Below are positions 2,165 through 18,914 of a stretch of 32,619 bases of DNA, one piece after another. A program made the position numbers and the translations under genes. Position 1 is the stretch's first letter; every line of letters begins with the position of its first letter. The DNA comes from Chloroflexota bacterium. GTDB taxonomy: Bacteria; Chloroflexota; Anaerolineae; Anaerolineales; Villigracilaceae. The stretch is taken from NCBI GenBank assembly GCA_021795965.1, contig JAJYOU010000021.1, positions 1-32,619 of the forward strand, written 5' to 3'. The notes beneath the pieces are model-generated. The model was given only the letters and a program-made list of their open reading frames with translations, did not search any database and was not told the origin of the DNA.

Positions 2165-2170
2165 TCTGAA

Positions 2171-2199
2171 ATTATAGCATTGAGATAACCACCTTTAAA
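2171..2199 (-). promoter_or_regulatory. Candidate promoter of dcm-vsr, giving a leaderless mRNA
   Basis: On the minus strand TTTAAA (2199-2194) is followed by a 17-bp spacer and a perfect TATAAT (2176-2171). Transcription would be expected about seven bases further on, at or next to the A of the methyltransferase ATG at 2164. There is no Shine-Dalgarno in the intervening TTCAGA. The -35 match is only 4 of 6, so the -10 box carries most of the evidence. Confidence 0.55.
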
Positions 2200-2425
2200 A
2201 ACAATTTCCATTCGAATTTTTTGAAAGAGTGTTATATTTAAAATATTCTTAATTTGCCATTAAACGTTCAATAAAATGCCCATGCCATTAGCTTCGGACC
2301 CAGTCACCTTGTCATCAATTGACTCTTGAAAACAATATTTGCCAATGGTGAGTTATTAATCAGGTTTCTCGATGTTTTTCTAGGTGCGTTTCTGAATTAA
2401 TCAATCATAACCTATGAGGGTGAGT

Positions 2426-3937
2426 ATGAGTGATTTTGTAAATGTTCCTCCTTCCCCTGCATCATTGATCCAATCTCTTCGCGATATAGGTTACTCAATT
2501 CAAACCGCAATCGCTGATATCATCGATAACAGTATTACAGCCAATTCAACAAAAATAGATATTAAATTTTCTTGGAATTTTGGAAATTCCTGGCTGGCTA
2601 TTATCGATGATGGTGAAGGGATGACTCACGATGAACTAATAAATGCAATGAGATTCGGCAGCAAAAACTCATTGGAAAACCGCGCAGAAAATGATTTGGG
2701 GAGATTTGGACTGGGGCTGAAAACAGCATCTTTCTCCCAATGTCGTCATCTTACTGTATTAAGCAAAAAAAATAAGCTAGTTTCTTGTTGTGCCTGGGAT
2801 TTGGACTTAATTGCCAGAAATAATGACTCGAGTTGGATGCTTAGCGTATTAAATGAAGTCGCGATAAAACAAAATGTAGTACTAAATGAACTTTTTTTAA
2901 AGTTTCTTTCTGATAAAAATAATGGAACGATAGTTTTTTGGGAAGATATTGACCGAATGTATGAAGAAGGGCTTGTCAAGGATAAAGAAAAACTCTTTAA
3001 CGCACTCATTGATGACACCAGGGAACATCTGCAATTGGTCTTCCATCGTTTTTTATCGCCAGAAATCGGATCCAAAAAAGTATCCATATTAATGAATGGC
3101 GATAATTTAATCGCATTTAACCCTTTCAATCCTCAAAACCTTGCTACCCAGGAACTGGAACAACAACAAATAATTATTAATGGCAACAAGATTGTTGCTC
3201 AACCTTATATTCTTCCACATCACAATAAAGTTTCCAGTGAGGAATATGAAAAATATGCCGGTGAGGGTGGTTATCTTCAAAATCAAGGTTTTTATATTTA
3301 CAGAAATAAAAGGTTGATTATTAAGGGAACGTGGTTTAGATTAATAAAGAAAGCGGAATTGAACAAATTAATACGCATCAGGGTTGATATTCCAAACACA
3401 TTGGATCACCTATGGAAAATCGATGTAAGAAAATCTCATGCATCACCTCCCGAAATTGTCAAAGAAGGTTTGCTGCAAGTCATTGAAAAAATAGAGGTAG
3501 CCGGTCGAAAAGTATACAAACAAAGAGGTACAAAACTTGCTTCAAAGGTAACCAATCCGGTTTGGCATCGCAAGGCAATTGCTGGCGAAATAATTTATGA
3601 GATTAATAGAGATCATCCACTGATTTTGGATTTATTAAATAAGGTGTCAAAAGACCAGAAGGATTATCTCCAACAAATTATTACAATGGTTGAAAATAGT
3701 TTTCCGGTGGATTTATTTTATAGTGATTTCGCGGATTCACCTGAACAAATTAAAAGCCCTAGCTTTGATGAGAATGGATTGAAATTATTGCTTGATATGT
3801 TTATTGAAACGTGGGATCCGGGAGGAACCTTAAAGAATCAGCTAAGCAAAAAGTTGCTCACAGTTGACCCATTTTCGTCAAACATGGAATTGACCCAAAA
3901 TCTGTTGAAACATAAAGGATACAAAATTAATGAATAA
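2426..3937 (+). CDS. MORC/GHKL-type ATPase of the defence cassette
   Basis: The N-terminal ~150 residues form a GHKL (Hsp90/MutL/histidine-kinase) ATP-binding domain. Visible are the N box ADIIDNSI, the G1 box IIDDGEGM and the glycine-rich lid GRFGLGLKTASF. The N box has aspartate where MutL and eukaryotic MORC have the catalytic glutamate. The remaining ~350 residues resemble the S5-like transducer and C-terminal region of bacterial MORC-like ATPases, which comparative genomics places in restriction-modification operons. I chose ATG 2426 because GAGGGTG (2416-2422) is a good Shine-Dalgarno for it; the earlier ATG at 2414 lies against that site. The 3' end overlaps the Z1 gene by 8 bases. By analogy with MutL it may clamp DNA on ATP binding and signal to the nuclease; this is inference. 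Confidence 0.88.
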   Translation: MSDFVNVPPSPASLIQSLRDIGYSIQTAIADIIDNSITANSTKIDIKFSWNFGNSWLAIIDDGEGMTHDELINAMRFGSKNSLENRAENDLGRFGLGLKTASFSQCRHLTVLSKKNKLVSCCAWDLDLIARNNDSSWMLSVLNEVAIKQNVVLNELFLKFLSDKNNGTIVFWEDIDRMYEEGLVKDKEKLFNALIDDTREHLQLVFHRFLSPEIGSKKVSILMNGDNLIAFNPFNPQNLATQELEQQQIIINGNKIVAQPYILPHHNKVSSEEYEKYAGEGGYLQNQGFYIYRNKRLIIKGTWFRLIKKAELNKLIRIRVDIPNTLDHLWKIDVRKSHASPPEIVKEGLLQVIEKIEVAGRKVYKQRGTKLASKVTNPVWHRKAIAGEIIYEINRDHPLILDLLNKVSKDQKDYLQQIITMVENSFPVDLFYSDFADSPEQIKSPSFDENGLKLLLDMFIETWDPGGTLKNQLSKKLLTVDPFSSNMELTQNLLKHKGYKINE

Positions 3938-6611
3938 TATCCTTATTGCCATAGAAGATATGGCATCCGCACTACTTTCTCCCAAACCGACATCAGAAGT
4001 AACGAGCAAAATTATAAATGAAGCTGTAAAAAAAACTTCTGAAATCATGTCTGTTGTGGAGGGTGTAAAAATTACCGAAGAAGAGATTGAGGTAATTACC
4101 AGAAGATTGGAGGCTCGGTTTGATATAACAATGACATTGGGAACATTGTTTTCCGAAAATTACAGGCCTTGGCTGGATAATTCAAAAGGTGATATTACTT
4201 GGTATTATTGGGAAAGATATAAACGTTTTTTAAAGTATCCACCACAAGTGGTTCGTAGCTTGGATAGCATCACTGACCAAATCTTGGATCACATTGAAAA
4301 TCCGAAGAAAGAGGGAAAATGGACTCGAAAAGGGATGGTTGTAGGGCATGTCCAATCGGGTAAAACCGGTAATTACATTGGCTTGGTTAATAAGGCTGCT
4401 GATAGCGGATATAAGGTAATAATTATTTTGGCAGGGACTTTAAATTTACTCAGAAATCAAACTCAATTACGCGTTGATAATGGATTTATTGGTAAAGATA
4501 CCGAGTTAAAGATGCCAGTTGGGGTGGGATTGTATTCCAATGAAAAACAGCCAGCTTATTTCACAACCAACACCAAGGATTTTAGAAAATCCATTGCAAA
4601 TCAGATAGGTGTTGGAATTGGAGACCTAAAAGAACCAGTCGTATTGGTAATCAAAAAGAACAAAACCACTCTTGAAAATCTTATCGATTGGCTGAAGCAT
4701 AATAACCGTCATAACTTAAAAAATTATCCGATGCTCCTGATTGATGATGAAGCGGATCAAGCATCAATTAACACGAACAAGGAGGGTGATGAAGCGACAG
4801 CCATCAATAAAAAAATAAGGGAACTTCTACATTTATTTGAACGTTCATCCTATATTGGTTATACAGCCACCCCCTTTGCCAATGTGTTTATTGATCCTGA
4901 AACAGAAACTGAAATGTTAGGAGACGATCTTTTCCCAAGAGATTTTATTATCAGCCTTGATCCACCAAGTAATTATTTTGGATCGGATAAAATATTTTCC
5001 AAAGAAACCAATTCGAGTATTGTTATCGAAGTCGACGATTTCGAAGAATACCTTCCTGCCTATCATAAAATAGATTGGCGTCCTAGTGGATTGCCAGCAA
5101 GCCTTGAAGAAGCAATAAGAGTATTTGTTTTAAGTCGCGCAATTCGTATTCTGCGTGGCGGTGAGAATTTGCATAATTCGATGATGATTAATGTTACCCG
5201 GTTTACAGGTGTTCAATCGCATTTAAAACTATTAATTGACGAATACATAAAAGAAATACGCCAATCCATCATTAACCATTACAAATTGAGTGTTTCTGAA
5301 GCCTTAAAAAACAGTGTGATGAGTGAAATAAAGACGACTTTTGATAAAACTTTTTCAGATTTAGAGTATTCTTGGAGCGAATTACAAGCGATATTAAAAG
5401 AATCAATATCGCCCATAAGTGTTATAGAAGTAAATTCTTCACCAACAACAGATAGGCTCGATTATAGTGAACAAAATTACCCAAATGGACGTTCTGTTAT
5501 AGCAGTTGGCGGGCTGGGTTTATCCAGAGGATTGACATTAGAAGGATTAACGGTCAGTTATTTTCTTCGTAACTCAATAATGTATGATACTTTAATGCAA
5601 ATGGGCCGTTGGTTTGGCTACAGGGAAGGATACGAAGATCTTTGTAGAATATATATGACTTCTGAAGCTGCATCTTGGTATGCCCACATTTCTGATGCAA
5701 CAGAGGAATTGCGTGAAGAATTTAGACGAATGAAAGCAGCAGGAATGTCGCCAAAAGATTTTGGATTAAGTGTTCGAAGCCATCCAGAATCTTTAATCGT
5801 GACTGCACGAAATAAAATGAGAACTGGTCAAAAAGTACTTCGAGGAGTAAGCTTGGAAGGTAGGCTAGTTGAAACTTCAATACTTCTGAAGAATATTACT
5901 TATGTTCAGGACAATAAAGCTTCAACGGAAACACTAATATTCGATGCGAAAAAGGTTGGGGTGGAGATTAAATCAGATTTTGGCCCTTTATGGATGGGCA
6001 TACCATCAAGCCATATCAATCAATTTATAGACCATTTTATTAATCACCCAGCTTCTCAAATTACAGAGAAAGAACCCCTTAAGGATTACATAAATTGGTT
6101 AAATTCACAAGGTATTGATAAATGGGATATTATTATTGTTTCACTAACCCAAGATTATGAGAGGGAATCTACAAGTTGGAACATTGGAGGCTTGGAGATT
6201 AAACCTCAAAGAAGAAAAGTGACCGATTACCCGCATCCAGGAGATGACGGAATTGCATTTTCTAAGCGTAGAGTTGCATCAAGAGGCTTGGAAAAAGCTG
6301 GCTTAACAGAAAACCAAGTAAAACAAGCAGAAACCACCTATAGCGGTAAAAATATACCAGATCACGCATATCGAGGTCAGAGAACCCGCCCGTTGCTTAT
6401 GATACATTTATTGGATTGCAGAGGCGAAAATGAAGAAATTTTGTTCGAAAAGGGAATTATTGCCTACGGAATAAGCTTTCCGGGTATAGCAGGTAGTCGA
6501 AGACCAGTAAAACTTGTGGAATATGTTGTCAATACGACTTGGTGGAAAAATCAATATGCTGATTTAATGGATGATGATGGGGAATCTGAAGATGAAAAAC
6601 CCATGGAATGA
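3930..6611 (+). CDS. Z1-domain superfamily-2-like ATPase
   Basis: This 893-residue protein matches the Z1 (PF10593) proteins found in restriction and phage-resistance operons. Helicase-type motifs are visible in order: Walker A GHVQSGKT (residues 139-146), Walker B LLIDDEAD (269-276), motif III-like YTATPF (311-316), a motif V-like VGGLGLSRGLTLEGL, and motif VI QMGRWFGYR (557-565). It is therefore expected to hydrolyse ATP and to move on or remodel nucleic acid. It overlaps the GHKL ATPase gene by 8 bases and the nuclease gene by 20, so the four rightward genes are almost certainly one translationally coupled transcript. By analogy with the motor subunits of type I/III restriction systems, it is the likely translocase; its DNA target is unknown. 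Confidence 0.9.
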   Translation: MNNILIAIEDMASALLSPKPTSEVTSKIINEAVKKTSEIMSVVEGVKITEEEIEVITRRLEARFDITMTLGTLFSENYRPWLDNSKGDITWYYWERYKRFLKYPPQVVRSLDSITDQILDHIENPKKEGKWTRKGMVVGHVQSGKTGNYIGLVNKAADSGYKVIIILAGTLNLLRNQTQLRVDNGFIGKDTELKMPVGVGLYSNEKQPAYFTTNTKDFRKSIANQIGVGIGDLKEPVVLVIKKNKTTLENLIDWLKHNNRHNLKNYPMLLIDDEADQASINTNKEGDEATAINKKIRELLHLFERSSYIGYTATPFANVFIDPETETEMLGDDLFPRDFIISLDPPSNYFGSDKIFSKETNSSIVIEVDDFEEYLPAYHKIDWRPSGLPASLEEAIRVFVLSRAIRILRGGENLHNSMMINVTRFTGVQSHLKLLIDEYIKEIRQSIINHYKLSVSEALKNSVMSEIKTTFDKTFSDLEYSWSELQAILKESISPISVIEVNSSPTTDRLDYSEQNYPNGRSVIAVGGLGLSRGLTLEGLTVSYFLRNSIMYDTLMQMGRWFGYREGYEDLCRIYMTSEAASWYAHISDATEELREEFRRMKAAGMSPKDFGLSVRSHPESLIVTARNKMRTGQKVLRGVSLEGRLVETSILLKNITYVQDNKASTETLIFDAKKVGVEIKSDFGPLWMGIPSSHINQFIDHFINHPASQITEKEPLKDYINWLNSQGIDKWDIIIVSLTQDYERESTSWNIGGLEIKPQRRKVTDYPHPGDDGIAFSKRRVASRGLEKAGLTENQVKQAETTYSGKNIPDHAYRGQRTRPLLMIHLLDCRGENEEILFEKGIIAYGISFPGIAGSRRPVKLVEYVVNTTWWKNQYADLMDDDGESEDEKPME

Positions 6612-7566
6612 AATTAATCTACCACAAAAAGATGTAACCGCTAGAAGAATTGATCCCGAACATGAACTCGATTTGTATTGGGCGTTGGATCTCTTGGGTC
6701 ATTATCTTTTTATTTTTGAGTTTTCACCAGAGGAAAACCTTCCACCAGTTACTCTTCCTGATCTAGTGGGGATCAAAACTTTTTATGTGCAGTCCGGGAA
6801 CCATATCGCCAAAAATCGACTAATTTTACTCTTGAACGATAAAAACAATTGGGAGATTTTTTTATCTTTATGCAACGATCTTCTTCAGGCTACAAGGAAA
6901 ACGCAAAATTCTTCAAATGCGGTAAGCGTTATTTTGAATAGATTGGAACATTGGCGGAAATTTTTACAAATTAATCAAAGCGGACTTTTAACTGAAGAAA
7001 AAATATTGGGGCTATTAGGGGAATTGTGGTTCTTAAATAAATATCTGATTCCCGTTTTTGGCGCTGGTCAATCAATAACATTTTGGCAGGGGCCAGAAGG
7101 GTTGCCATATGATTTTAATGTCAACGAAAGTGCAATTGAAGTCAAATGTAAATCTGGGGCAAACACTCCATATGTGAGAATTTCTTCTGCAGATCAATTA
7201 TGCCCTCAATTACCAGAAATGTATTTTTTTGTCGTTACTCTTGGGAAAACTCCGAAAAACAACGCAGATAAAATAAATCTTCCCCAATTAATAAGTCAGA
7301 TTGGTGATGCTTTAAAGTCTGAACCTTCAGCTCACTCCCAGAGGTTTTACGATCTTTTGCACGCAATTGGTTATATTGATTCAGATCAATATCTTGATTT
7401 TAGTTATATTGTTACAAATGAAATAATGTTCGAAGTAATTGATGGATTTCCTCGGGTGTGTTCAAAAGATCTTCATCATGGAATCTCCAACCTTACTTAT
7501 TCAATTAGCTTATTGGATTGTGCTCCATTTGAAAAGTGGCCGGATTGGATGCAGGGGATAAAATGA
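6592..7566 (+). CDS. PD-(D/E)XK motif protein (DUF4420-like)
   Basis: This protein of about 324 residues has a recognisable PD-(D/E)XK nuclease core. A helix carries LLGELWFLNKYL (Glu144), followed by a strand with YDF (Asp174) and then AIEVKCKSG, giving Glu183-x-Lys185. This pattern and the length fit the DUF4420 (PF14390) proteins that accompany Z1 and AIPR genes. I prefer ATG 6592 to the in-frame ATGs at 6571-6577 because GATGGGGA lies at a suitable distance before it; this leaves a 20-base overlap with the Z1 gene. The end overlaps the next gene as ATGA. It is the best candidate for the DNA-cutting subunit. The family assignment is from motif and context, and nuclease activity is inferred. 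Confidence 0.85.
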   Translation: MKNPWNEINLPQKDVTARRIDPEHELDLYWALDLLGHYLFIFEFSPEENLPPVTLPDLVGIKTFYVQSGNHIAKNRLILLLNDKNNWEIFLSLCNDLLQATRKTQNSSNAVSVILNRLEHWRKFLQINQSGLLTEEKILGLLGELWFLNKYLIPVFGAGQSITFWQGPEGLPYDFNVNESAIEVKCKSGANTPYVRISSADQLCPQLPEMYFFVVTLGKTPKNNADKINLPQLISQIGDALKSEPSAHSQRFYDLLHAIGYIDSDQYLDFSYIVTNEIMFEVIDGFPRVCSKDLHHGISNLTYSISLLDCAPFEKWPDWMQGIK

Positions 7567-9620
7567 ACTTAGTTGATTATTATGAAGAATTTATGCAAGA
7601 TGTCATCGCTTTATCAGGTTCGGAAAAAGATTTTCATGAAACTGTGTTTACTGAACGCTTATGCGATTTTCTTGTTGACCAGGCAATTGTTGAGGATTAC
7701 ACATATATTGGTTACAAAAAAGTTGCAAAGGGAATTCGCATCGATGCTTGGGACCTCAACAACGATACAGGCGTATTAAATTTATTCGTAACCGATTTTA
7801 GATATACAGCTCAATTGGAAATTCTTTCCAGTACAGATGTTACAAAATTATTTAAAAGAGCGATCAAATTTTTTACAGAAAGCCTAAACAAAAAGTTTCA
7901 CTTTGAATTGGAGGAAACCACGCCAGGGTTCGAATTGGCCCAAACAATATTTGAAAAATCTTTGTTGATTTCAAAAGTAAATTTTTTTGTATTATCGAAT
8001 GCTCAACTTAGTGAGCGTGTGGAAGGCATTGAAAAGAATAAAATAAAGGGGTATCCCTGCACTTATGACATTTGGGATATAAGCCGTTTACATCGAATAG
8101 AATCCTCGAAAAACGCCAGGGAGGATATTCTAATTGATTTCAAAAAGTTTGCTGTGGATGGGACTGGCATCCCCTGTTTACCAGCTTTCACCGGCACTGG
8201 CGATTTTGCTTCTTATTTATTTGTAATGCCAGGAAAGATGATTGCCGAACTTTATGATGATTATGGAGAGAGGCTATTGGAACAAAATGTTAGGACATTT
8301 CTTCAGTTTCGAGGAAATGTCAACAAGGGGATAAGAAATACCATCCAAAATGAACCTGAGATGTTTTTTGCATACAATAATGGATTAAGTTTAACAGCAG
8401 AGCATGTTGAAACTGACAATAAACGCGAAAGAATCATATCTGTAACAAATTTGCAGATTGTGAATGGAGGACAAACAACTGCCTCAATATTTTCAGCGAT
8501 GAAAAATTTCAAAGCAGAACTATCGAAAGTTTATGTTCAAGTGAAACTGACTGTAATCCCCCCAGAAAAGGTCGATGCTATTGTTCCTCGGATTTCCGAA
8601 TATGCAAACACGCAAAATAAAGTAAGTGCTGCCGATTTCTTTTCCAATCACCCATTTCACTTACGAATTGAAGAAATATCAAGACGCCTTTGGGCTCCGT
8701 CACCGGATGGCGGTTTGAGAGAAACACATTGGTTCTATGAACGTGCTCGTGGGCAATATGCAAATGCCCAAGCTAAATTAACACCCGCAAAAATTAAAGA
8801 ATTTATTTCAAAAAATCCTAGAAATCAAATGTTTACCAAAACCGACTTGGCAAAGTTTGAGAATTCCATGGATATGTTGCCAAATATTGTTAGCCTTGGA
8901 GCTCAAAAGAATTTTGCCAGATATGCTGGCGCAATTGGGGAAAAATGGTTTAAAAACGAAAAACAATTTAATGAACTGTATTTTAAACAGTTGGTTGCGA
9001 AAATCATAATATTTCGTTTTCTAGATAACAGTATTATGAAGCAAAATTGGTATGGTGGGTATAAAGCAAATATTATTACATACTCATTGGCAAAACTGGC
9101 CCATATGGTTTCAATTATTGGGACAAATGTGGATTATGACCAAATTTGGAAAGACCAAAAACTTTCACCTGCACTCAAAATGCAACTATTAATGATTGCA
9201 AAAGTTGTAAATGAACAGATTCAAAATACCCCAAGTGATATAACGAATGTAACAGAATGGTGTAAAAAAGAATTATGTTGGAAGATAATAAGAGACCTCC
9301 CGCTATCCATTAATGATGATCTAATCATTGAATTAAAGGATATCGGAGAGATAAACGAAAATAAAAAAGGGGCGGAAAAGATCCAAAAAATGGATAATGG
9401 AATATTTGATCAAAAATATGTTCTCGAAAAAGGGATTGAGTATTGGAAACTGATAGCTCAATTTGGATTGAAGCATTCGCTTCTTAGCCCAATGGAAATG
9501 GAAATACTTGCATTTGTTTGTAAGAATTCGTCAAATGTTCCATCAGAAAAGCAATCACAAATTATGAAGCAAATCGAAAAAAGAGTGAGGGATGAAGGTT
9601 TTTTTGTTGAAAGTGAATAA
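7563..9620 (+). CDS. AIPR family abortive-phage-resistance protein
   Basis: This 685-residue protein contains the AIPR (PF10592) signature in its middle. ENVRTFLQFRGNVNKGIRNT starts at about residue 240, YNNGLSLTAE at 271, and NLQIVNGGQTTASIF around 297-310. An N-terminal ~200-residue segment with GIRIDAWDLN and LNLFVTDF resembles a nuclease-fold or DNA-associated region, but I cannot assign it firmly. The start at 7563 uses the ATGA overlap with the preceding stop and the Shine-Dalgarno CAGGGG. An upstream in-frame ATG at 7536 would only add nine residues encoded inside the previous gene. AIPR is named from lactococcal abortive infection, so this may be the effector or substrate-sensing arm of the cassette. 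Its biochemical activity is not established by the sequence. Confidence 0.9.
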   Translation: MNLVDYYEEFMQDVIALSGSEKDFHETVFTERLCDFLVDQAIVEDYTYIGYKKVAKGIRIDAWDLNNDTGVLNLFVTDFRYTAQLEILSSTDVTKLFKRAIKFFTESLNKKFHFELEETTPGFELAQTIFEKSLLISKVNFFVLSNAQLSERVEGIEKNKIKGYPCTYDIWDISRLHRIESSKNAREDILIDFKKFAVDGTGIPCLPAFTGTGDFASYLFVMPGKMIAELYDDYGERLLEQNVRTFLQFRGNVNKGIRNTIQNEPEMFFAYNNGLSLTAEHVETDNKRERIISVTNLQIVNGGQTTASIFSAMKNFKAELSKVYVQVKLTVIPPEKVDAIVPRISEYANTQNKVSAADFFSNHPFHLRIEEISRRLWAPSPDGGLRETHWFYERARGQYANAQAKLTPAKIKEFISKNPRNQMFTKTDLAKFENSMDMLPNIVSLGAQKNFARYAGAIGEKWFKNEKQFNELYFKQLVAKIIIFRFLDNSIMKQNWYGGYKANIITYSLAKLAHMVSIIGTNVDYDQIWKDQKLSPALKMQLLMIAKVVNEQIQNTPSDITNVTEWCKKELCWKIIRDLPLSINDDLIIELKDIGEINENKKGAEKIQKMDNGIFDQKYVLEKGIEYWKLIAQFGLKHSLLSPMEMEILAFVCKNSSNVPSEKQSQIMKQIEKRVRDEGFFVESE

Positions 9621-10738: not shown

Positions 10739-12097
10739 ATGGACAACGTAAAACATCATCGACTTGGCAGTATATTTCGCTTTTTAGTCATGGCTGCCGT
10801 AATTTTTTCCCTGACGTTGGGCACGGGGCAAGTAGCCCAGGCTTCAACATTCAGGGCACCGGTTAATCTCGGCACCGCATCCCATTTCGCGATTTTGACG
10901 AAGACTGGTATCACCAATGTTCCCGCCTCTGCCATCACCGGCGATCTGGGAGTGAGCCCGGCGGCTGCATCCTACATCACCGGATTTTCATTAATCATGG
11001 ATAGCACGAATACGTTTTCAAAATCATCACAGGTCACTGGCAAAATATACGCTGCCAATTATGCAGCACCCACGCCTGCCAACATGACCACGGCGATCAG
11101 CAACATGCAGACCGCCTATTCAGATGCCGCAGGGCGGACTTTACCCGACTACACCGAGCTGTTTGCTGGAAATCTGAGCGGTCGAACCCTTTCCCCGGGT
11201 CTCTACAAATGGAGCACTGGTGTTCTCGTGAACTCAGCAGTGACCCTTTCGGGACCTGCCGACGCGGTCTGGATTTTCCAGATAGCCGGGAACCTGACCA
11301 TGGGTTCAGGCGCGAAAGTTATCCTGAGCGGCGGCGCCAAAGCCAGTAATATTTTCTGGCAGGTGGGCGGCGGCGTGGGAGTTGAAATTGGAACCACCGC
11401 ACACATGGAAGGAACCCTGCTGGCTCAAAAGGCGATTCATATTCGCACAGGCGCATCGCTAAACGGCAGGGCTTTGTCGCAGACAGCAGTGACCCTGGAC
11501 CACAATACAATTGTTCTCCCGCCTTCAGTCATTAAGGTTGCCTACTTCACTTCCCAGGCTCTTCTGGATGGCTACACCCTTGAATCTGGTGAGAACACCA
11601 ATATGGGCGGATCGCTCAATTCGACGGCTGGCGTCATTGTTGCTGGCGATAACGCCCAGAACAAACAATACCGCTCCATCCTGTCTTTTGATACTTCCAG
11701 TTTGCCGGATCGGGCAGTCGTCACAAGCGCCAGGATTTCGATTATGAAACAGGGAATGGTCGGAACCAATCCATTTACCACCCTTCGCTACCTGTTGGTC
11801 GACATCCGCAAGCCTTATTTCGGCACATCCTCCAGCCTGCAATTGAGCGACTTTCAAGCTTACGCCAATTCTAATTGGGCTGGCACGTTCGGTAAATTGC
11901 CGGTCAACGGCTGGTACAGTGCCAGTTTGAACCCAAGCGGTAAATTGTACGTCAACCGCAGCGGGATCACTCAATTCCGAGTGCGCTTCTCGCTCGATGA
12001 CAATAACAACAACATTGCTGATTACATCAAATTCTACAGCGGCAACTCGCTGACTGCCTCACGTCCACGCCTGGTGATCAGTTACTACGTGCCGTAA
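10739..12097 (+). CDS. Secreted ice-binding-like (DUF3494) protein with C-terminal DNRLRE/CBM96-like domain
   Basis: This 452-residue protein has a Sec signal peptide: a basic start, a hydrophobic stretch at about 14-28, and the cleavage context AQA|S after residue 35. Residues ~41-262 are a DUF3494 beta-solenoid. Recognisable pieces are NLGTASHFAILTKTGITN, SAITGDLGVSP, LSGRTLSPGLYKW, WIFQIAGNLTMGSGAKVIL, and MEGTLLAQKAIHIRTGASLN. Some family members bind ice; many bacterial members are probably adhesins, so ice binding is not certain. Residues ~270-452 form a second beta-rich module with QYRSILSFDTSSLPD and a final SRPRLVISYYVP, typical of DNRLRE/CBM96-like domains in cell-surface proteins. 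A strong terminator follows. No membrane anchor or sorting motif is visible, so it is probably released or loosely attached. Confidence 0.88.
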   Translation: MDNVKHHRLGSIFRFLVMAAVIFSLTLGTGQVAQASTFRAPVNLGTASHFAILTKTGITNVPASAITGDLGVSPAAASYITGFSLIMDSTNTFSKSSQVTGKIYAANYAAPTPANMTTAISNMQTAYSDAAGRTLPDYTELFAGNLSGRTLSPGLYKWSTGVLVNSAVTLSGPADAVWIFQIAGNLTMGSGAKVILSGGAKASNIFWQVGGGVGVEIGTTAHMEGTLLAQKAIHIRTGASLNGRALSQTAVTLDHNTIVLPPSVIKVAYFTSQALLDGYTLESGENTNMGGSLNSTAGVIVAGDNAQNKQYRSILSFDTSSLPDRAVVTSARISIMKQGMVGTNPFTTLRYLLVDIRKPYFGTSSSLQLSDFQAYANSNWAGTFGKLPVNGWYSASLNPSGKLYVNRSGITQFRVRFSLDDNNNNIADYIKFYSGNSLTASRPRLVISYYVP

Positions 12098-12469: not shown

Positions 12470-13057
12470 TTGACCCAAGAACAGTGGCTGGTGATCGGTC
12501 TGTGCGTTGTTTTGATCCTCTGGTACGCGGTTGGTGCGTATGTCAATTACCGGCGTGCCGCCGTGGTGCTGGATTGGCTGAAGGACGGGTTGGACGAACT
12601 GGGCAACCTGAGTGGCATGGGCTGGCTGACGGCACTGCATTCCGCCGGCAGGCTGGTGATCCGCGATGCCAAGGCTCCTTTCCGCATGGTCGAGCTGCTT
12701 TTTGCCCTGGAAGCGCGTGAAAACCTGCCGGTCTGGGCGTTCCGTCATATTTTGGGGCGGCGCGACGAGCTCTACCTGCGGGCTGATCTGCGCAGCCTTC
12801 CCCAGTCAGACCTGGAGATCGTCCGCCGGGCGCGTCCAAACAAGTCTGGCGATTGGTACGATATTAAAGGATACAATCCAAAAAACGATGAAATGCTGGC
12901 GCGCTTCAAGGCATTCCTGGCTTTATACCCGGATTCGGTCCTGAAGGTCTCCATCAATCGGAAAACTCCAAACGCCCTCGTGCGCTTCAACCTGGCAATT
13001 TTGCGGGCGGGCACTGCCAAGGCTTTTTATTCAGCCCTGCAAGGCTGGTTCGGATAG
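12470..13057 (+). CDS. Conserved-looking single-TM protein of unknown function
   Basis: This 195-residue protein starts with TTG at 12470, chosen because AAGGAGAGG lies at good distance and no ATG fits. Residues ~6-27 form one transmembrane helix. The rest is a mixed, basic cytoplasmic domain with motifs such as WYDIKGYNPKNDEMLARFKA and KVSINRKTPNALVRFNL. I do not recognise the family. It is an isolated unit with its own promoter upstream and a terminator 23 bases after the stop. The codon use is like that of the housekeeping genes around it, so it is probably native rather than acquired. Confidence 0.75.
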   Translation: MTQEQWLVIGLCVVLILWYAVGAYVNYRRAAVVLDWLKDGLDELGNLSGMGWLTALHSAGRLVIRDAKAPFRMVELLFALEARENLPVWAFRHILGRRDELYLRADLRSLPQSDLEIVRRARPNKSGDWYDIKGYNPKNDEMLARFKAFLALYPDSVLKVSINRKTPNALVRFNLAILRAGTAKAFYSALQGWFG

Positions 13058-13080: not shown

Positions 13081-13113
13081 AAAAAGTCCGGCACTCGAAA
13101 GTGCCGGACTTTT
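13081..13113. terminator. Bidirectional intrinsic terminator between converging genes
   Basis: AAAAGTCCGGCACT and AGTGCCGGACTTTT form a perfect stem with a CGAA tetraloop, with A and T runs on both flanks. It can end both the rightward gene at 12470 and the leftward ArsA operon whose stop is at 13159. Confidence 0.9.
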
Positions 13114-13158: not shown

Positions 13159-14136
13159 TCAGGCGAAGAGCAGGTTTGCCGTGCGTTTGAGCATTTCCGT
13201 CCCGCGCACTTCGGTTTCGAATAGCGGCAGGACACAGCGCACCTGTCCATCGAATTCCTTCCAGATGGTTTCCATGTGTTCGTCCTGCATCGAGACGCGG
13301 TTTTTGACAAAATCAGGCGCGTCTTCCTTGACACTGTCTTTATCGATCAGCATGTTCACGATTACGCCGCCGACGGGGATGTTGAATTCCCTGAACCAGC
13401 CGATGAAGCGGGTGATGACTGCGATCGGAAGTGCTTCGGGCAGGGTTACAAAAAAGAATGAGGTCAGGTTTTTATCGGTCAGGAGGGTCTTGGCGTTGCC
13501 CATGCGCTCGCGCAGGTTGAGCAGGTAGTCCATCAGGGGATCTTTTTCCTTTTTCTTGCGGCTGTAGGAAAGCAAATCTTTCATGGAGGCTGCTTCTTCC
13601 CGGCTTTGGACCATCTTGTTGACCCACATCGAATAGACGCTGGTCATGCCCAGCAAACGGCGGGCATTGGCGGTCGGAGCGGTATCGAAGACATAGACGT
13701 CGTACTCGTTATCGAACATCAGGTCGATCATGTTCTCAAACATGGCTGATTCCTCGAAAGACGGGTTCATCGTGGCGGATTCGACAAAATCATCCGCTTT
13801 GGTCTTGATGTCAGCGTATTTAAGGAACCAGGCGATTTTCTCGCGGATTTCGTTCTTGGATTTTTCGATGGTATCGTGAGTGTCGATCTCGTATGCCGTC
13901 AGGTTGGGAATGCCCTCAACGGGGGTTTGCTTGCCGAAGACGTTCTGCCCGAGCAGGCTTGAGAGCGAGTGGACCGGGTTTGTGGAAGCCAGCAGGGTCT
14001 TCCTGCCATGCTGTGCAGCCCAGATCGCGGCTGCTCCAGCCATGACGGTTTTACCGACCCCGCCTTTCCCGCCAAAAAAGATGTATTTCAGCTTGGGGTT
14101 TTCGGTCATGAAACTTTGCATGGATGTCTCGATCAT
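13159..14136 (-). CDS. ArsA/Get3-family ATPase, subunit B
   Basis: This 325-residue protein is an ArsA-family (SIMIBI class) P-loop ATPase. The deviant Walker A GGKGGVGKT lies at residues 22-30. The switch I region reads STNPVHSLSSLL (Asn53 where the family has Asp; Ser60 where the second Asp is expected). The switch II region reads DTAPTANARRLL (the usual GH is AN). Its ATG overlaps the stop of the preceding ArsA gene as ATGA, and it is the last gene of the cstA operon. It has one cysteine, in VRCVLPLF. It therefore lacks both the arsenite-binding cysteine triad of ArsA and the Get3 CxxC zinc site. Function in arsenic export is unlikely. I infer that it pairs with its neighbour as a heterodimer handling the small proteins of the operon. 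Confidence 0.85.
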   Translation of the reverse strand: MIETSMQSFMTENPKLKYIFFGGKGGVGKTVMAGAAAIWAAQHGRKTLLASTNPVHSLSSLLGQNVFGKQTPVEGIPNLTAYEIDTHDTIEKSKNEIREKIAWFLKYADIKTKADDFVESATMNPSFEESAMFENMIDLMFDNEYDVYVFDTAPTANARRLLGMTSVYSMWVNKMVQSREEAASMKDLLSYSRKKKEKDPLMDYLLNLRERMGNAKTLLTDKNLTSFFFVTLPEALPIAVITRFIGWFREFNIPVGGVIVNMLIDKDSVKEDAPDFVKNRVSMQDEHMETIWKEFDGQVRCVLPLFETEVRGTEMLKRTANLLFA

Positions 14137-15113
14137 TTTTTACCTCCAAACATCTCGTTCGCAACCCGTTCGATCATCGGCAGACCGGTGATATCGCGCT
14201 CAAACTCAGGAACTCGCGCCAGGACCTGCCCGGCAAAGACTTCGTCGATTTCTTTCAAATAGGTTGTCTGCATTTCCATGCGGTTGACCAGGTACGCCGG
14301 GATATTCTCACCGCTCAATTCAGCCGGGATGACGCGGTTGACGATGTAACCGGCGAGAGGCACGTCGAATTTGGCAAAAAGGTCGGAAGCTTTCTTGGTA
14401 TCGAGAATGATCATTTCTTCGGGGGTGACGACAAAGAAGAAAGCCGTCTTGAGTTTATCGGTCAGGATGCCGGAGGAGACGTTAATGCGGTGTTTGATGA
14501 ATTGCAGCTCCTTGAGGATCTGGTCCTCTTCGGTTTCCTTGTCCCGCTGCATGACGTTCGCAACCTTCGAATATTCTTCCATCTCGGTTCGCAGCCCGGT
14601 GATCTTATCGATCCACTGGTCGTAAACCGAAGCCATGCTCAGATAATAGAGGGCATGACCGAGGGGGACAAGGTCGTAAATGTAATAGTCGTATTCGTTA
14701 CTACCGACGATATCCACCACTTCATCGAAGATGGCGCTTTCCTCCATGGCAGGTTCGGCAGCCACCGACTGGATGTAGTTTTCGATCTCTTCCGGGATTT
14801 CCGTCATCCCATACATATCGCGGATTTTCTGGCGGATTTCGTCCTGGTATTCCCGGATGCGCTGGTCTGCGTCAATTTCCTGGGCGAACAGGTTGGGCAT
14901 GATTTCGACCGGGCCTTTGCCGAAGATATCGCGCTTGAAGATATCTGAGAGGCTCGCCTGTGGATCGACTGAGAAAACGAGGACCTTAAAGCCCTGTTTT
15001 GCCAGCCAATAAGCCGTGGCGGCGGAGAATGTGGTCTTGCCCAGTCCGCCCTTGCCGCCGTACATGATATATCTTCTATTTGGATTTTGGTCAAAAACTT
15101 CTCGCATTGACAT
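14133..15113 (-). CDS. ArsA/Get3-family ATPase, subunit A
   Basis: This 326-residue protein has Walker A GGKGGLGKT at residues 19-27. Switch I reads SVDPQASLSDIF, keeping Asp50 and Asp57 but losing the usual His. Switch II reads YDLVPLGHALYYL, keeping the GH but losing DTAPT. It contains no cysteine, which argues against metalloid binding. AGGAGC, which overlaps the stop codon of the preceding small-protein gene (TAGGAGC), is the Shine-Dalgarno for ATG 15113. The end overlaps subunit B by ATGA. The losses complement those in subunit B, as expected if the two share composite nucleotide sites. The family includes the tail-anchored protein targeting factor Get3; a targeting or assembly role here is inference. 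Confidence 0.85.
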   Translation of the reverse strand: MSMREVFDQNPNRRYIMYGGKGGLGKTTFSAATAYWLAKQGFKVLVFSVDPQASLSDIFKRDIFGKGPVEIMPNLFAQEIDADQRIREYQDEIRQKIRDMYGMTEIPEEIENYIQSVAAEPAMEESAIFDEVVDIVGSNEYDYYIYDLVPLGHALYYLSMASVYDQWIDKITGLRTEMEEYSKVANVMQRDKETEEDQILKELQFIKHRINVSSGILTDKLKTAFFFVVTPEEMIILDTKKASDLFAKFDVPLAGYIVNRVIPAELSGENIPAYLVNRMEMQTTYLKEIDEVFAGQVLARVPEFERDITGLPMIERVANEMFGGKK

Positions 15114-15122
15114 GAATGGCTC

Positions 15123-15413
15123 CTATGCAAGTGCGTCTGTTAGATCTTTTTCGCGTAACATACGTCGTTTCCAGGTGCTGATTTGAGGAACGACGTAGGG
15201 CAGCAGGCGTAAGCTGTAATAGGGAGGCAGGATGGGAATGCCGAGCAGATCACCCATCGTGATCAGGATAAAGAGGTGCTCCATGCTGCCGCGGGTCTTA
15301 AGCGCGTAACGCGCCATATCGTGACCCGCCATGCCGTACATGACGCTCTTGAAGCCGTCCATCCAGGATGGTTTTTTCCCTTTTACTTCCTCATCATTCG
15401 TTTCATTTGGCAT
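15123..15413 (-). CDS. Small conserved protein, paralogue 2 of the cstA-ArsA operon
   Basis: This protein of about 96 residues belongs to no family I recognise. Its C-terminal half, EHLFILITMGDLLGIPILPP followed by YYSLRLLPYVVPQI and WKRRMLREKDLTD, is nearly the same as in the gene before it. The hydrophobic stretch could be a single membrane-associated segment near the C-terminus, with a positively charged tail after it. AGGAG at 15427-15423 fits ATG 15413 (spacing 9) better than ATG 15419 (spacing 3). It ends 9 bases before the ArsA subunit A start and shares sequence with that gene's ribosome site. Its N-terminal third is polar and differs from paralogue 1. Confidence 0.8.
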   Translation of the reverse strand: MPNETNDEEVKGKKPSWMDGFKSVMYGMAGHDMARYALKTRGSMEHLFILITMGDLLGIPILPPYYSLRLLPYVVPQISTWKRRMLREKDLTDALA

Positions 15414-15468
15414 AATCATGTTCTCCTTTTTATAAGTATAAATCCATCCGCAGGTCTCGAGGTTATCC

Positions 15469-15771
15469 TCAGGTGATTTCCTGGTCACAGAGGTCGGTTA
15501 GATCACGTTCACGCAGCAGGCTGCGCTTCCAACCGTTAATATTGGGAACCACGTAAGGCAGCAGTCGCAGTGTGTAATAAGGCGGCAGGACCGGGATGCC
15601 GACGATATCCCCGAAAACGATCAGGATGAATAAATGTTCGAGATGAGATCTTTCTTTATGCAAGCCCCGAACAATCTCGTAAACACTGGCGCCGTAAACC
15701 ATATCGCCAAATGCCCTGGTGAACCCACCAGCTGTTCGAGTGATTTGTGAAACCGTCAGTTTGAAATTCAT
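15469..15771 (-). CDS. Small conserved protein, paralogue 1 of the cstA-ArsA operon
   Basis: This 100-residue protein starts at 15771, where ATGA overlaps the stop of the thioredoxin-fold gene. A longer in-frame reading from 15948 would lie inside that gene and is not credible. Residues ~44-95 contain EHLFILIVFGDIVGIPVLPP, then YYTLRLLPYVVPNI and WKRSLLRERDLTD, about three-quarters identical to paralogue 2. Gly, Pro and Tyr positions are fully shared, so the segment is functionally constrained. I do not know the family. Two related small proteins next to two related ATPases suggest that each could be an adaptor or cargo for the ATPases, or a subunit associated with CstA. Confidence 0.82.
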   Translation of the reverse strand: MNFKLTVSQITRTAGGFTRAFGDMVYGASVYEIVRGLHKERSHLEHLFILIVFGDIVGIPVLPPYYTLRLLPYVVPNINGWKRSLLRERDLTDLCDQEIT

Positions 15772-16163
15772 GGCAAAACCGCGACGTTCGATTCGGTTTG
15801 GACGACCGCGCCGGCTGATTGCAGCGCCTGCTCCAACTGCTGTGGATCGAGCCCGACGATTTTTTTGCCGCCCGCGATGAACGTTGGGTAGCGGTGTGCT
15901 CCGAATTGGATGGCTTTGATCAGTCCCTGGAGCGAACGCGGATCCCAAATGTGGAACCTGACTGAATCACCGTATCGCAGCGACAGATCAAAGATCGTAT
16001 CGGAGAAGCGTTGAAAATCGTCCTGCCAATCCGGCGGGTATTCATCCAGACCACGATCAGACGGCGCTTTATAAAAATCAGCCTGGGCGATCATCATTTC
16101 GCAGGAAAGACAAATTCCCCATCCTTCCGGTAACGGCATGATTACATCGATCTGGATTGTCAT
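15768..16163 (-). CDS. Thioredoxin-fold protein with CLSC motif
   Basis: This 131-residue protein starts with a beta strand (IQIDVIMPLP), then GWGICLSCEMMIAQADF with a CxxC pair (Cys18, Cys21) at the start of a helix. Later comes RYPTFIAGGKKIVG, like the cis-proline strand of thioredoxins. No signal peptide is present, so it should act in the cytoplasm. I chose ATG 16163 because the conserved-looking protein begins there; an extension to 16250 would be translated from a hairpin-forming leader. No strong Shine-Dalgarno precedes it (GAAAGAAAA). It follows cstA by about 105 bases and overlaps paralogue 1 by four. A redox or metal-handling job for the operon is inferred. Confidence 0.75.
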   Translation of the reverse strand: MTIQIDVIMPLPEGWGICLSCEMMIAQADFYKAPSDRGLDEYPPDWQDDFQRFSDTIFDLSLRYGDSVRFHIWDPRSLQGLIKAIQFGAHRYPTFIAGGKKIVGLDPQQLEQALQSAGAVVQTESNVAVLP

Positions 16164-16187
16164 TTTTTCTTTCGTAATTTCGGGACG

Positions 16188-16249
16188 TGCGGCACACCTG
16201 GTTCCTGCACTTCCTTGAGCTTTGCGCCAGGAAGAAAGTGCGCCGCACA
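16188..16249 (-). promoter_or_regulatory. Nested inverted repeat between cstA and the downstream genes
   Basis: GTGCGGC and GCCGCAC at the two ends can pair, and inside them GCACTT pairs with AAGTGC, giving a 62-base structure in the message after cstA and before the thioredoxin-fold gene. No T-run follows. It may stabilise the cstA message or attenuate the downstream genes. Confidence 0.45.
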
Positions 16250-16268
16250 TCTCATAATCGGAGGTCAG

Positions 16269-18098
16269 CTAGACTGAAGTCTTGACTGGTTTATTTTCGC
16301 GAGCCTTGTTGAAGGCTTTTAAAGCGTCCCAGGCAAGGAAAAGTGCCGCGATCACCAGGTAGATGGCGATCAAACCAGCCAGCCAGTTACCGATGATTTT
16401 ATCAACCGGCAGGTTGGCTGCGCCCAGCTGAGAGAACACACTGAATGCTGTCAGGAGCAGCGCAGCAATGGTGGTCACGAACATGAAGAGGAACGGGATG
16501 AAGGTCCACATGTAGTTCTTGCCGTTGGACATCAACCAGAGGGTGACCAGAAGCAGGGCGAGCGAAGCCATTAACTGGTTGGCGCCGCCGAAGAGCACCC
16601 AAACACGTGCCCAGAAGCCGGTGTAGATCATGAGAGCCGAGAGCAGCAGGGCGATGATCGAGCCGAAGGTGGTGTTTTTGAAGAGCGGAATTGAATCGCC
16701 CAGGAATTCAGCTGAAGCGACGCGCATGAAACGAACCACCAGGTACATGATCGTCAGACCCATCAGGGTCAGAAATACCGAGCCATAGGGCAGACCGAAC
16801 GAGGTGGGCACACCGACTTTGGACATCATCTCGCTCAAGCCGATTGCAAAAATGCCTGCGTTCTTGCCAGCCGCGACCAAGCCAACATAACCCGCAAAAC
16901 CCTTGGTTACGCCAACGCCGACGACTGCCGTCAGGAGGGATAAAGTGGCCAGGAACATTTCGAGGAACATGGCGCCGCCACCAACATAGAGGGCGTCGGC
17001 TTCATTTTCAAGCTGGCGGGCAGTGCCAGATGAAGAAACCAGGCTGTGCCAGCCGGAAACTGCACCGCAGGCAATGGTCACAAAGAGCAGCGGCCACATG
17101 GGTCCGAGCGGAACCATGTTCTTAAGCAGTTTTGGATCGATGCTTGAACAATTAGCTGACGCACACAGGTTACCGTTCCAGTTGGTGAAAGCCGGGAAAT
17201 CTGCGGGGAAAGCCGGGTGCCAGATCAAAAGACCAAGAGTGCCAGCCAGGATGCCCAAGAAAACGATCCAGAAGGATACGTAGTTGATGGGCTGCGCCCA
17301 GCGCCAGATGGGAAGTACTGCGCCGAAATAGCACAGAACCAGCGCCACCAGGCTCCAGATGAACTGCGGGCGTGTCACAGCTCCGAAGACGGTTGCATAG
17401 GTTTGGATCGCCTTGCCATCCGGACCGGTGCCTGCAACTGCGCCGTTAATCACGTTGGTGATAAATCCCTGGACAGGTGCCAGGGTGCCGAGCCAGATGC
17501 CCACAAAAGCCAGGACAACCGTGATCCCACTCGTCACAATGATATCCATCTTCCATTTATAGGTCATTTGACCAGCCAGCAAGCCGACGCCGATTACCAG
17601 CAGCAATCCCAGCGGGACTGCCGGGTTGGTCATCAGGTCGTAACCAACAATCTTGCCAAAGGCTGCCATGATCAAAAGCAGGTAGAAATAGATGAAGGTT
17701 AACAGGATGGAGCGGGAGCGTGGGGAGATAAAGCGATAGGAGAGAGCACCAAATGACTGGCCGTCCTCCCGAACGCCAAGCATGATGCTCGAATAATCCT
17801 GTACCCAGCCGATAAAGAATGTGCCGAAGATGATCCAGAGCAGTGCTGGCAACCAGCCCCATTGAACCGCAACGATTGGTCCGGTGATTGGACCCAACGC
17901 GGCAATGGATTTGAACTGGTAACCAAAGAGCACGTTACGGTTGGCGGGGGTGAAATCCACTCCATCCATGTACATCCTGGCTGGTGTGGCTTTTTTGCCA
18001 TCCGGTTGGATCACTTTCCGATCAATGGTCTTGGCATAGAAGCCATAGCCCAAAAAAATTGCAACAACGCCGATGAATAATGTTACAACAGCATTCAT
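16269..18098 (-). CDS. cstA: Carbon starvation protein CstA (pyruvate/peptide transporter family)
   Basis: This 609-residue polytopic membrane protein has about 16 hydrophobic segments. It has CstA landmarks: a first TM followed by TPARMYMDGVDFTPANRNVL, then FKSIAALGPITGPIVAVQWG, then WVQDYSSIMLGVREDGQSFG. CACGAVSGWHSLVSSSGTA-like sequence (ACGAVSGWHSLVSSSGTARQ) lies further on. E. coli CstA and BtsT take up pyruvate and possibly peptides under carbon limitation. Full length, intact start with AGGAGG just upstream. In enterobacteria cstA is followed by the tiny ybdD gene; here it is followed by a different set of five genes, which is the unusual point. The substrate in this organism is not determined by sequence. 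Confidence 0.95.
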   Translation of the reverse strand: MNAVVTLFIGVVAIFLGYGFYAKTIDRKVIQPDGKKATPARMYMDGVDFTPANRNVLFGYQFKSIAALGPITGPIVAVQWGWLPALLWIIFGTFFIGWVQDYSSIMLGVREDGQSFGALSYRFISPRSRSILLTFIYFYLLLIMAAFGKIVGYDLMTNPAVPLGLLLVIGVGLLAGQMTYKWKMDIIVTSGITVVLAFVGIWLGTLAPVQGFITNVINGAVAGTGPDGKAIQTYATVFGAVTRPQFIWSLVALVLCYFGAVLPIWRWAQPINYVSFWIVFLGILAGTLGLLIWHPAFPADFPAFTNWNGNLCASANCSSIDPKLLKNMVPLGPMWPLLFVTIACGAVSGWHSLVSSSGTARQLENEADALYVGGGAMFLEMFLATLSLLTAVVGVGVTKGFAGYVGLVAAGKNAGIFAIGLSEMMSKVGVPTSFGLPYGSVFLTLMGLTIMYLVVRFMRVASAEFLGDSIPLFKNTTFGSIIALLLSALMIYTGFWARVWVLFGGANQLMASLALLLVTLWLMSNGKNYMWTFIPFLFMFVTTIAALLLTAFSVFSQLGAANLPVDKIIGNWLAGLIAIYLVIAALFLAWDALKAFNKARENKPVKTSV

Positions 18099-18255: not shown

Positions 18256-18287
18256 AAGACCCAGTTTAATTATCGATGGAGGTTGCC

Positions 18288-18914
18288 ATGTCTTTGCCTG
18301 TCTTGCTATTATTAATCGGTTTTGTTTATATCGTTGTTTTTGGCGGTCTGGCTTTACTCCGGCGCGAGGGACTTTCCCTGCGGTTTGCGCTTGAATCACT
18401 GATCCTGACCGGAGTGGTGGCTGGACTGACCGCTGTGTCCAGCTTCAAAATCGAACCAGTCGTTTTCCTGCTCCTGCTCTACCTGGTGACGATGCGAGTG
18501 CGCCTGTTGGTGGATCTCGGTACAGATTTCGCCAGGCGAGGCAAGATCGTGCGGGCTGGGCGATTCTATGAGTTTGCGGCTCGCCTCTGGCCTGATCAAT
18601 CCGGCATGATCGTGATCGATGTCAACCGCGCAACTGCTTTGCTGCAATCAGGACAATACGATCTAGCCATCTCATTGCTCAAATCAGTCCTGGACAAGGC
18701 AGGGCAGGGTTACCTGGGTGTGAAATATGAGGTTGCTGCGCATTACAACCTGGCGGTTGCATATCTGCGACAAAAGAAAGATTCACAGGCAATTATTGAA
18801 TTCAATGCCGTTTTAGATACCTGGCCTTCTTCTGATTACTCGCGCAGCGCCACGCGGGCTCTGGAAAAACTCCAACACAAAAATTTAGCTGAAAAAGACA
18901 ATCAAGAAGAATAA
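18288..18914 (+). CDS. Membrane-anchored TPR-like protein
   Basis: This 208-residue protein has two N-terminal transmembrane helices (about 3-23 and 37-65, the second region broad) and a soluble C-terminal half. That half carries TPR-like helical pairs, visible as NRATALLQSGQYDLAISLLK and AAHYNLAVAYLRQKKDSQAI. The tail is charged and polar. ATG 18288 is preferred to 18276 because GGAGG (18279-18283) lies between them as a ribosome site. It is transcribed away from cstA and has its own promoter and terminator. TPR domains mediate protein-protein contacts, so a scaffolding role at the membrane is likely; the partner is not known. It might belong with the cstA operon only by divergence. Confidence 0.78.
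   Translation: MSLPVLLLLIGFVYIVVFGGLALLRREGLSLRFALESLILTGVVAGLTAVSSFKIEPVVFLLLLYLVTMRVRLLVDLGTDFARRGKIVRAGRFYEFAARLWPDQSGMIVIDVNRATALLQSGQYDLAISLLKSVLDKAGQGYLGVKYEVAAHYNLAVAYLRQKKDSQAIIEFNAVLDTWPSSDYSRSATRALEKLQHKNLAEKDNQEE

Follow-up and report, generated by a model that had tools for sequence, protein, structure and literature searches.

In a 32,619-nucleotide contig from a Chloroflexota bacterium (JAJYOU010000021.1; the whole contig is referred to here as the window), six genes on the minus strand run from cstA (start at 18098), which encodes a carbon-starvation family transporter, through genes for a CxxC thioredoxin-fold protein and two small paralogous proteins, S1 and S2, to the second of two genes for ArsA-family ATPases, ArsA1 and ArsA2 (end at 13159). 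The two ATPases differ in a fixed way at the position that corresponds to the catalytic residue of Get3: ArsA1 has aspartate and ArsA2 has asparagine wherever the position can be read. The simplest reading of such a pair would be a heterodimer in which one site hydrolyzes ATP and the other holds it. We tentatively favor a model in which this heterodimer, acting through S1 and S2, powers or gates CstA. An earlier note on this DNA, made from the sequence alone, had proposed a six-gene operon here that forms a dedicated system; the operon of six co-directional genes is confirmed, and the arrangement recurs far beyond chance.

Results

A fixed difference at the catalytic position of the two ATPases

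ArsA1 and ArsA2 match the ArsA family PF02374 with E values of 4e-70 and 2.6e-65, respectively, and both pass the Pfam and TIGR00345 cut-offs. Each chain holds one PF02374 stretch, indicating that both are single-domain proteins. They are also the sole long PF02374 matches in the source genome, which is 62% complete and encodes one CstA; its four other matches span just 33-57 positions. For both ATPases the top sequence matches in the PDB are the archaeal Get3 relatives 3zq6 and 3ug6. The P-loop GKGG[LV]GKT, including the signature lysines, is kept in 86 of 86 ArsA1 and 80 of 80 ArsA2 sequences from the set of loci described below, and ATP binding is therefore expected of both proteins. ArsA1 has no cysteine and ArsA2 has one, in keeping with the earlier note's statement that the ATPases lack metal cysteines, and the cysteine pair of the archaeal zinc CxxC has no counterpart in either protein when aligned to 3ug6 and 3zq6.

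Switch I sets the two proteins apart, reading SVDPQAS in ArsA1 and STNPVHS in ArsA2. Alignment to 3ug6 and 3zq6 places the aspartate of ArsA1 and the asparagine of ArsA2 opposite the aspartate of STDPAHS, which we take to be D57 in yeast Get3 numbering. Aspartate occupies this position in 103 of 103 distinct readable ArsA1 sequences, and asparagine in 106 of 106 distinct readable ArsA2 sequences, where each different 60-residue stretch from the P-loop is counted once and the sequences come from the locus set and from further Chloroflexota genomes, two sources that partly overlap. Outside these counts stand five ArsA1 and one ArsA2 open reading frames (ORFs) without a P-loop, and the ArsA2 ORF of locus L212 (43 bits), whose switch I is unreadable. 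In L212, from genome G285, this 107th ArsA2 is broken across two overlapping frames past the P-loop, through either a frameshift or an assembly error. The aspartate/asparagine split holds down to 41-46% identity to the window proteins, in a divergent clade of four genomes. Switch II is likewise characteristic of each protein: it reads DLVPLGH in all 83 ArsA1 sequences with the region, with DMPPFGH in the divergent clade, and DTAPTAN in 78 of 78 ArsA2 sequences, with DTAAVAN as the alternative form.

The accessible text on Get3 describes D57 as catalytic and the D57N variant as binding ATP without hydrolysis (PMC12506534). For single-domain ArsA proteins, the aspartate has been described as replaceable solely by asparagine (Castillo and Saier, 2010; PMC2963123), a remark that the available part of that paper does not tie to pairs. 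The fixed asymmetry of the ArsA pair appears to be new.

The cluster recurs in a conserved gene order

To follow the cluster beyond the window, genomes of relatives were searched with the NF041419 (cory-CC-star) model, which S1 and S2 match. Thirteen of 61 genomes matched, two of them weakly (G011 and G054; E 0.003-0.007), and none of the 10 others that belong to the genus of the source genome did so. The eleven relatives' loci contain the small protein and ArsA1 in ten cases, ArsA2 in nine (L030 ends within ArsA1) and CstA in nine. A second small protein sits past ArsA2 in L029 and L032, and in four loci a third copy is found at that place. A contig scan with the small-protein alignment contributed the best 80 of 462 relatives, a sample that leans towards the window's S2. 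Together with the eleven relatives and the window, minus three duplicates, these make up 89 non-redundant loci from Chloroflexi, Acidobacteria, Methylomirabilota, several deltaproteobacterial groups, Spirochaetes and others, ruling out that the gene order is seen only in this genome.

Among the 89 loci, ArsA1 is present in 86, ArsA2 in 80, a nearby CstA in 72 and two or more small proteins in 72. The order small protein, ArsA1, ArsA2 is kept in all 80 loci that hold all three, and cstA lies upstream and co-directional in 68 of the 70 loci with both cstA and ArsA1. The two exceptions, L118 and L121, are deltaproteobacterial; here cstA and the CxxC gene occupy the strand opposite the small-protein and ArsA genes, suggesting that the cluster consists of two sub-units. 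Most of the missing genes are accounted for by contig ends. With the exception of L039, no locus without an ATPase extends more than 134 bases past the final gene of the set. Seventeen loci lack CstA; besides L039, these are ten with less than 1.5 kb of upstream sequence and six with 7-10 kb. Five of these six were tested (L109 fell outside the test), and all five encode CstA elsewhere in the genome, one of them on the same contig. Co-occurrence also holds in genome G261, where the parts are spread over three places.

L039 is the clear exception to the pattern. Its small-protein homologue is distant, with 28% identity to S2, and is encoded between genes for SCO1/SenC and a DsbA-like protein (5435-7775); there is no CstA in the genome and no match to an ArsA model in the locus.

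The small protein, CstA and ArsA2 co-occur across genomes

We next counted the components across whole genomes. Among 400 Chloroflexota genomes the small protein is found in 39 and CstA in 40, with both in 37 (Fisher p 3e-46, uncorrected for ancestry). ArsA2, counted at an E value of 1e-60 or better, is also found in 39 and shares 38 of them with the small protein; G190 has the small protein without ArsA2, and G158 has ArsA2 without the small protein. The two genomes with the small protein and no CstA, G062 and G285, are 73% and 89% complete. In a second phylum, Candidatus Methylomirabilota (that of genome G452 and locus L117), 95 genomes yielded the small protein in 23 and CstA in 33, with 21 shared; G506 and G532 have the small protein without CstA. 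Thus genomes with the small protein nearly always have CstA and ArsA2 as well, and apart from L039 the idea of a dedicated system stands.

We also looked for YbdD, the small partner of CstA in Escherichia coli. The YbdD family PF04328 is matched in none of the 40 CstA-bearing Chloroflexota genomes, whereas the E. coli and Corynebacterium glutamicum controls are positive; at the cut-off it is matched in none of 94 second-phylum genomes, with one match below threshold. In the sampled Chloroflexota, then, CstA is nearly always accompanied by the small protein and ArsA machinery, and relatives of YbdD are undetected. With no PF04328 match in the 40 genomes, the possibility that S1 and S2 are themselves YbdD relatives was set aside, although the two were not compared directly. 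The CstA loci of G144 and G223 (L172 and L173), two genomes without a match to the small protein, ArsA2 or YbdD, show no obvious small partner.

Over 57 loci with all four genes, mean identity is 77% for S2, 76% for ArsA1, 73% for ArsA2 and 56% for CstA. Pairwise distances among the four proteins correlate with r of 0.59-0.78, for which shared phylogeny alone could suffice.

The small proteins and the thioredoxin-fold protein

S1 and S2 are paralogues; of their two tblastn alignments, one covers 74 residues at 58% identity and the other 86 residues at 50%. Both match NF041419 significantly (34 bits, E 1.8e-8 for S1; 33 bits, E 4.4e-8 for S2) but under its 80-bit cut-off, and the match of the Haloferax volcanii control is also below the cut-off. 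Their C-termini read QEIT and DALA, and so lack a C-terminal Cys-Cys, a trait of cory-CC-star that we take from its name only; searches of the open-access literature returned no paper on cory-CC-star. The center and tail of the small protein are strongly conserved across 121 sequences, and S2 carries the conserved stretch MEHLFILITMGDLLGIPILPPYYSLRLLPYVVPQISTWKRRMLRE. The earlier note correctly recognized the paralogy, but its description of a hydrophobic C-terminal half was too broad: each protein has a single moderate hydrophobic segment within residues 44-67, with a Kyte-Doolittle maximum of 2.0 in S1 and 1.6 in S2. AlphaFold predicts for S2 a long helix (17-59) and three short helices at low confidence (predicted local distance difference test score, pLDDT, of 64). 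As weak evidence, this poor fold confidence might fit a protein whose folding takes place on a partner or within a membrane. A search of plasmids with S2 found no matches.

The protein encoded between CstA and S1 matches no Pfam or NCBIfam family. Across 46 relatives P93 never varies, and C18 and C21 are kept in at least 90%. AlphaFold2 models it with a pLDDT of 82, and the top Foldseek matches to the model are mostly thioredoxins, the best at E 3e-3 with a probability of 1.00 and none at or below 0.001. The CxxC motif, the conserved proline ahead of the second strand pair and the predicted thioredoxin topology agree with the fold that the earlier note assigned. Profile searches find the protein in 48 of the 89 loci, and tblastn adds L059. 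In L177 its gene stays with cstA, away from the small-protein and ArsA genes. The recurrence of a CxxC thioredoxin-fold protein in this cluster appears to be new.

A variant of a published system

The earlier note knew of no described system with this composition. That claim does not hold: operons of cstA, cstX and arsA, including some with ArsA pairs and CstX paralogues, appear in the accessible part of a comparative genomics study (Castillo and Saier, 2010; PMC2963123), and the locus is a variant of that system, not a new kind. The study's available text reports 26 instances of CstA with ArsA, 24 of which include CstX; two organisms have ArsA genes side by side as a pair, and two have CstX paralogues. 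It proposes that CstX couples ATP hydrolysis by ArsA to CstA, drawing the link to CstX from co-evolving trees (PMC2963123). As described there, the shared features are CstA, a single-domain ArsA of about 330 amino acids and the absence of arsR, here from the window genes searched. We liken S1 and S2 (100 and 98 amino acids, one hydrophobic peak) to CstX (about 90 amino acids, single segment) by description. The statement in that text that CstX is not found without CstA holds here for 37 of 39 and 21 of 23 genomes with the small protein, L039 being an exception. Set against the system as that text presents it, the present cluster is distinguished by the aspartate/asparagine-fixed ArsA pair and, often, the CxxC protein, the 195-residue protein Y195 and a TPR membrane protein.

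Other known systems resemble the cluster in part. ArsA1 and ArsA2 share with archaeal and eukaryotic Get3 (TRC40) the family, the deviant P-loop, the signature lysine and the single-domain size, but they lack the zinc CxxC, are two different subunits, and in ArsA2 have asparagine at the position of the catalytic aspartate. As in the ArsA/ArsB arsenite pump, an ArsA ATPase is encoded with a carrier; unlike in that pump, there are two genes in place of one double-domain protein, none or one cysteine in place of three metal-binding ones, and a carrier of a different family. The mycobacterial proteins Rv3679 and Rv3680 (called BagA and BagB) also place two different Get3-like chains in one entry (PDB 6bs3), but they match ArsA1 weakly (E 4e-7 and 5e-6), and we know of no link between them and CstA. 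The E. coli CstA/YbdD pyruvate transporter similarly joins CstA to a small partner; it differs from the present cluster in having YbdD, whose family is unmatched in the 40 CstA-bearing Chloroflexota genomes, and to our knowledge it has no ATPase. Pyruvate uptake in E. coli requires both CstA and YbdD, according to the available text of PMC5847655. In the open-access literature searched, the 2010 study was the one paper that turned up on the association of ArsA with CstA.

Operon layout, accessory genes and the rest of the window

Coordinates of the cluster and its neighbors are collected in Table 1. The earlier note held that most junctions in the operon are ATGA overlaps or share a ribosome site. 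Only two of the five are ATGA overlaps (CxxC/S1 and ArsA1/ArsA2), and the other gaps measure 105, 49 and 9 bases. An alternative, longer start for the CxxC gene at 16250 has no visible ribosome site. Beyond the end of ArsA2 lies an adjoining hairpin that the terminator scan assigns to the plus strand. The scan found 8 terminator-like sites in total against 6.6 (standard deviation 2.7) in shuffled sequence, which is no excess; the remaining 7 all have 10 pairs or fewer.

Table 1. Features of the cstA-ArsA cluster and its immediate surroundings, in window coordinates.
Feature	Position	Strand	Basis and remarks
cstA, carbon-starvation family transporter, 609 amino acids	16269..18098	-	PF02554 E 1.8e-116, above the Pfam cut-off; 14 hydrophobic peaks
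CxxC (CLSC) thioredoxin-fold protein (predicted), 131 amino acids	15768..16163	-	conserved residues, AlphaFold2, Foldseek
S1, CstX-like / cory-CC-star-like small protein, 100 amino acids	15469..15771	-	NF041419 E 1.8e-8; S2 paralogue
S2, CstX-like / cory-CC-star-like small protein, 98 amino acids	15123..15419	-	NF041419 E 4.4e-8; relatives' alignments
ArsA1, single-domain ArsA/Get3 ATPase, catalytic Asp (SVDPQAS), 326 amino acids	14133..15113	-	PF02374, TIGR00345
ArsA2, single-domain ArsA/Get3 ATPase, switch I Asp-to-Asn (STNPVHS), 325 amino acids	13159..14136	-	PF02374, TIGR00345
Hairpin of 14 pairs resembling a terminator, where the ArsA2 and Y195 genes converge	13082..13113	+	terminator scan
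Y195, 195 amino acids, a single hydrophobic segment at the N-terminus plus a soluble domain	12470..13057	+	co-occurrence with the core
TPR212, 212 amino acids, three hydrophobic peaks and TPR repeats	18276..18914	+	Pfam TPR; frequent neighbor, divergent from cstA here

Two flanking genes, Y195 and TPR212, encode proteins with membrane segments that travel with the core, an association that appears to be new. The earlier note mentioned neither of them, nor the fixed catalytic asymmetry of the ArsA pair. Neighbors were counted in 87 loci (92 minus five duplicates or near-duplicates). The core has a relative of Y195 nearby in 37 of them, 29 times on the opposite strand and 8 times on the same one, and a relative of TPR212 nearby in 43, on the core's strand in 28 and on the other in 15. 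Y195 is found in 35 of the 400 Chloroflexota genomes, 32 of which also have the small protein (Fisher p 5e-37, again uncorrected for ancestry). Three genomes (G158, G340 and G420) have Y195 without the small protein, and seven have the reverse. No Pfam family covers the soluble domain of Y195. The protein could correspond to archaeal CstY, which the available text of PMC2963123 describes as having a single segment and about 210 amino acids; we liken the two by description.

None of arsR, arsB or an arsenate reductase gene was found among the window genes searched, which comprise part of its ORFs, as the earlier note had observed. Elsewhere in the window, positions 617-9620 hold a Mza-like defense cluster with matches to MzaB (E 3.6e-89), MzaC (1e-145), MzaD (5.5e-12) and MzaE (3.9e-80) and no MzaA among the matches listed. 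It adjoins a C5 DNA methylase whose top PADLOC match is DrmMII. At 10739-12097, a domain resembling ice-binding proteins, under its family cut-off, is fused to a DNRLRE domain.

Discussion

From the gene content and order, the co-occurrence, the conserved residues and the predicted thioredoxin fold, we infer a system in which CstA would be the membrane carrier and S1 and S2 its CstX-type small partners, in the place that YbdD holds in E. coli. ArsA1 and ArsA2 would pair obligately as a heterodimer, with ATP bound by each chain; the hydrolyzing aspartate would be present in ArsA1 only, and ArsA2 would serve as the ATP-holding partner. Cycling of the dimer would be relayed through S1 and S2 to power or gate transport by CstA. 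The CxxC protein might tune this by redox state, and Y195 and the TPR membrane proteins might dock the complex. We regard the core of this model, a heterodimer with one active site that powers or gates CstA through S1 and S2, as possible but still short of probable. Its stronger form goes further. The CstA family is known as one of secondary carriers, and that an obligate ArsA heterodimer drives it with ATP in several phyla, with paralogues of the small protein replacing YbdD, seems to us doubtful.

Several observations weigh against this model. CstA occurs without the small protein in 3 of the 40 Chloroflexota genomes with CstA (G144, G158 and G223) and in 12 of the 33 in the second phylum, so the CstA family as such does not need the machinery. 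Nine of those twelve CstA proteins score 349-366 bits against PF02554, compared with at most 319 for those associated with the small protein, and may belong to another CstA subfamily. Relatives of CstA are named proton symporters (NF011590), and in E. coli they are not known to depend on an ArsA protein. The genome counts ignore shared ancestry, and co-occurrence as such does not separate energizing from targeting or assembly. The poor model of S2 allows no interface to be proposed for it, and the open-access literature yielded no experimental work or biochemistry on the ArsA-linked form of CstA.

The earlier note had the ATPases target or assemble the two small proteins; the published energization model is at least as likely. 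In its fullest form, targeting would resemble the GET pathway: the ArsA heterodimer would shield the hydrophobic segment of S1 and S2 and deliver them beside CstA, with the TPR protein and Y195 as receptor-like docks and ATP spent on delivery instead of transport. The closeness of both ATPases to archaeal Get3 relatives in the PDB, the single hydrophobic segment of S1 and S2, the conserved basic residues in the tail behind it, and the recurrence of a TPR membrane protein near the core are all consistent with this. However, the hydropathy of S2 is marginal, and its tail is conserved in sequence beyond the needs of a mere anchor. Get3 moreover works as a homodimer, whereas ArsA2 always has asparagine at the catalytic position. 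We consider such delivery unlikely, if a serious contender.

Slightly less likely again is a switch, in which the heterodimer and the CxxC protein would respond to ATP or thiol state by opening or locking CstA via S1 and S2 without powering it. The invariant asparagine of readable ArsA2 would suit a sensor, as would the CxxC gene's attachment to cstA when the latter is apart from the small-protein and ArsA genes (L177), but a CxxC protein absent from the profile matches of nearly half the loci is an awkward component for it. Powering or gating, delivery and a regulatory switch cannot be separated by sequence data alone.

A shared neighborhood without shared function would fit the patchy distribution, which is compatible with transfer as one block given the 10 genomes of the same genus without a match, but it is largely refuted by the co-occurrence of parts that lie on opposite strands (L118 and L121) or apart (G261 and the five genomes with CstA elsewhere), and we judge it very improbable. 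An arsenical or metalloid pump stripped of its usual genes has little beyond ArsA family membership to recommend it and is hardly credible; we rejected a role in arsenic resistance on the single-domain ATPases, their none and one cysteine, and the absence of arsR, arsB and arsC among the neighbors searched.

ArsA/Get3 ATPases are best known as motors of arsenite pumps or as targeting factors for membrane proteins. If the heterodimer does drive CstA, the cluster would represent an ArsA-carrier pump outside arsenic transport, powered by an asymmetric two-chain motor that combines a natural hydrolytic site with an ATP-trap site like that of D57N. The aspartate/asparagine split predicts a heterodimer in which one site turns over ATP and the second holds it, and, given that split, whether an ArsA ATPase drives or gates a non-arsenic carrier becomes a directly testable question.

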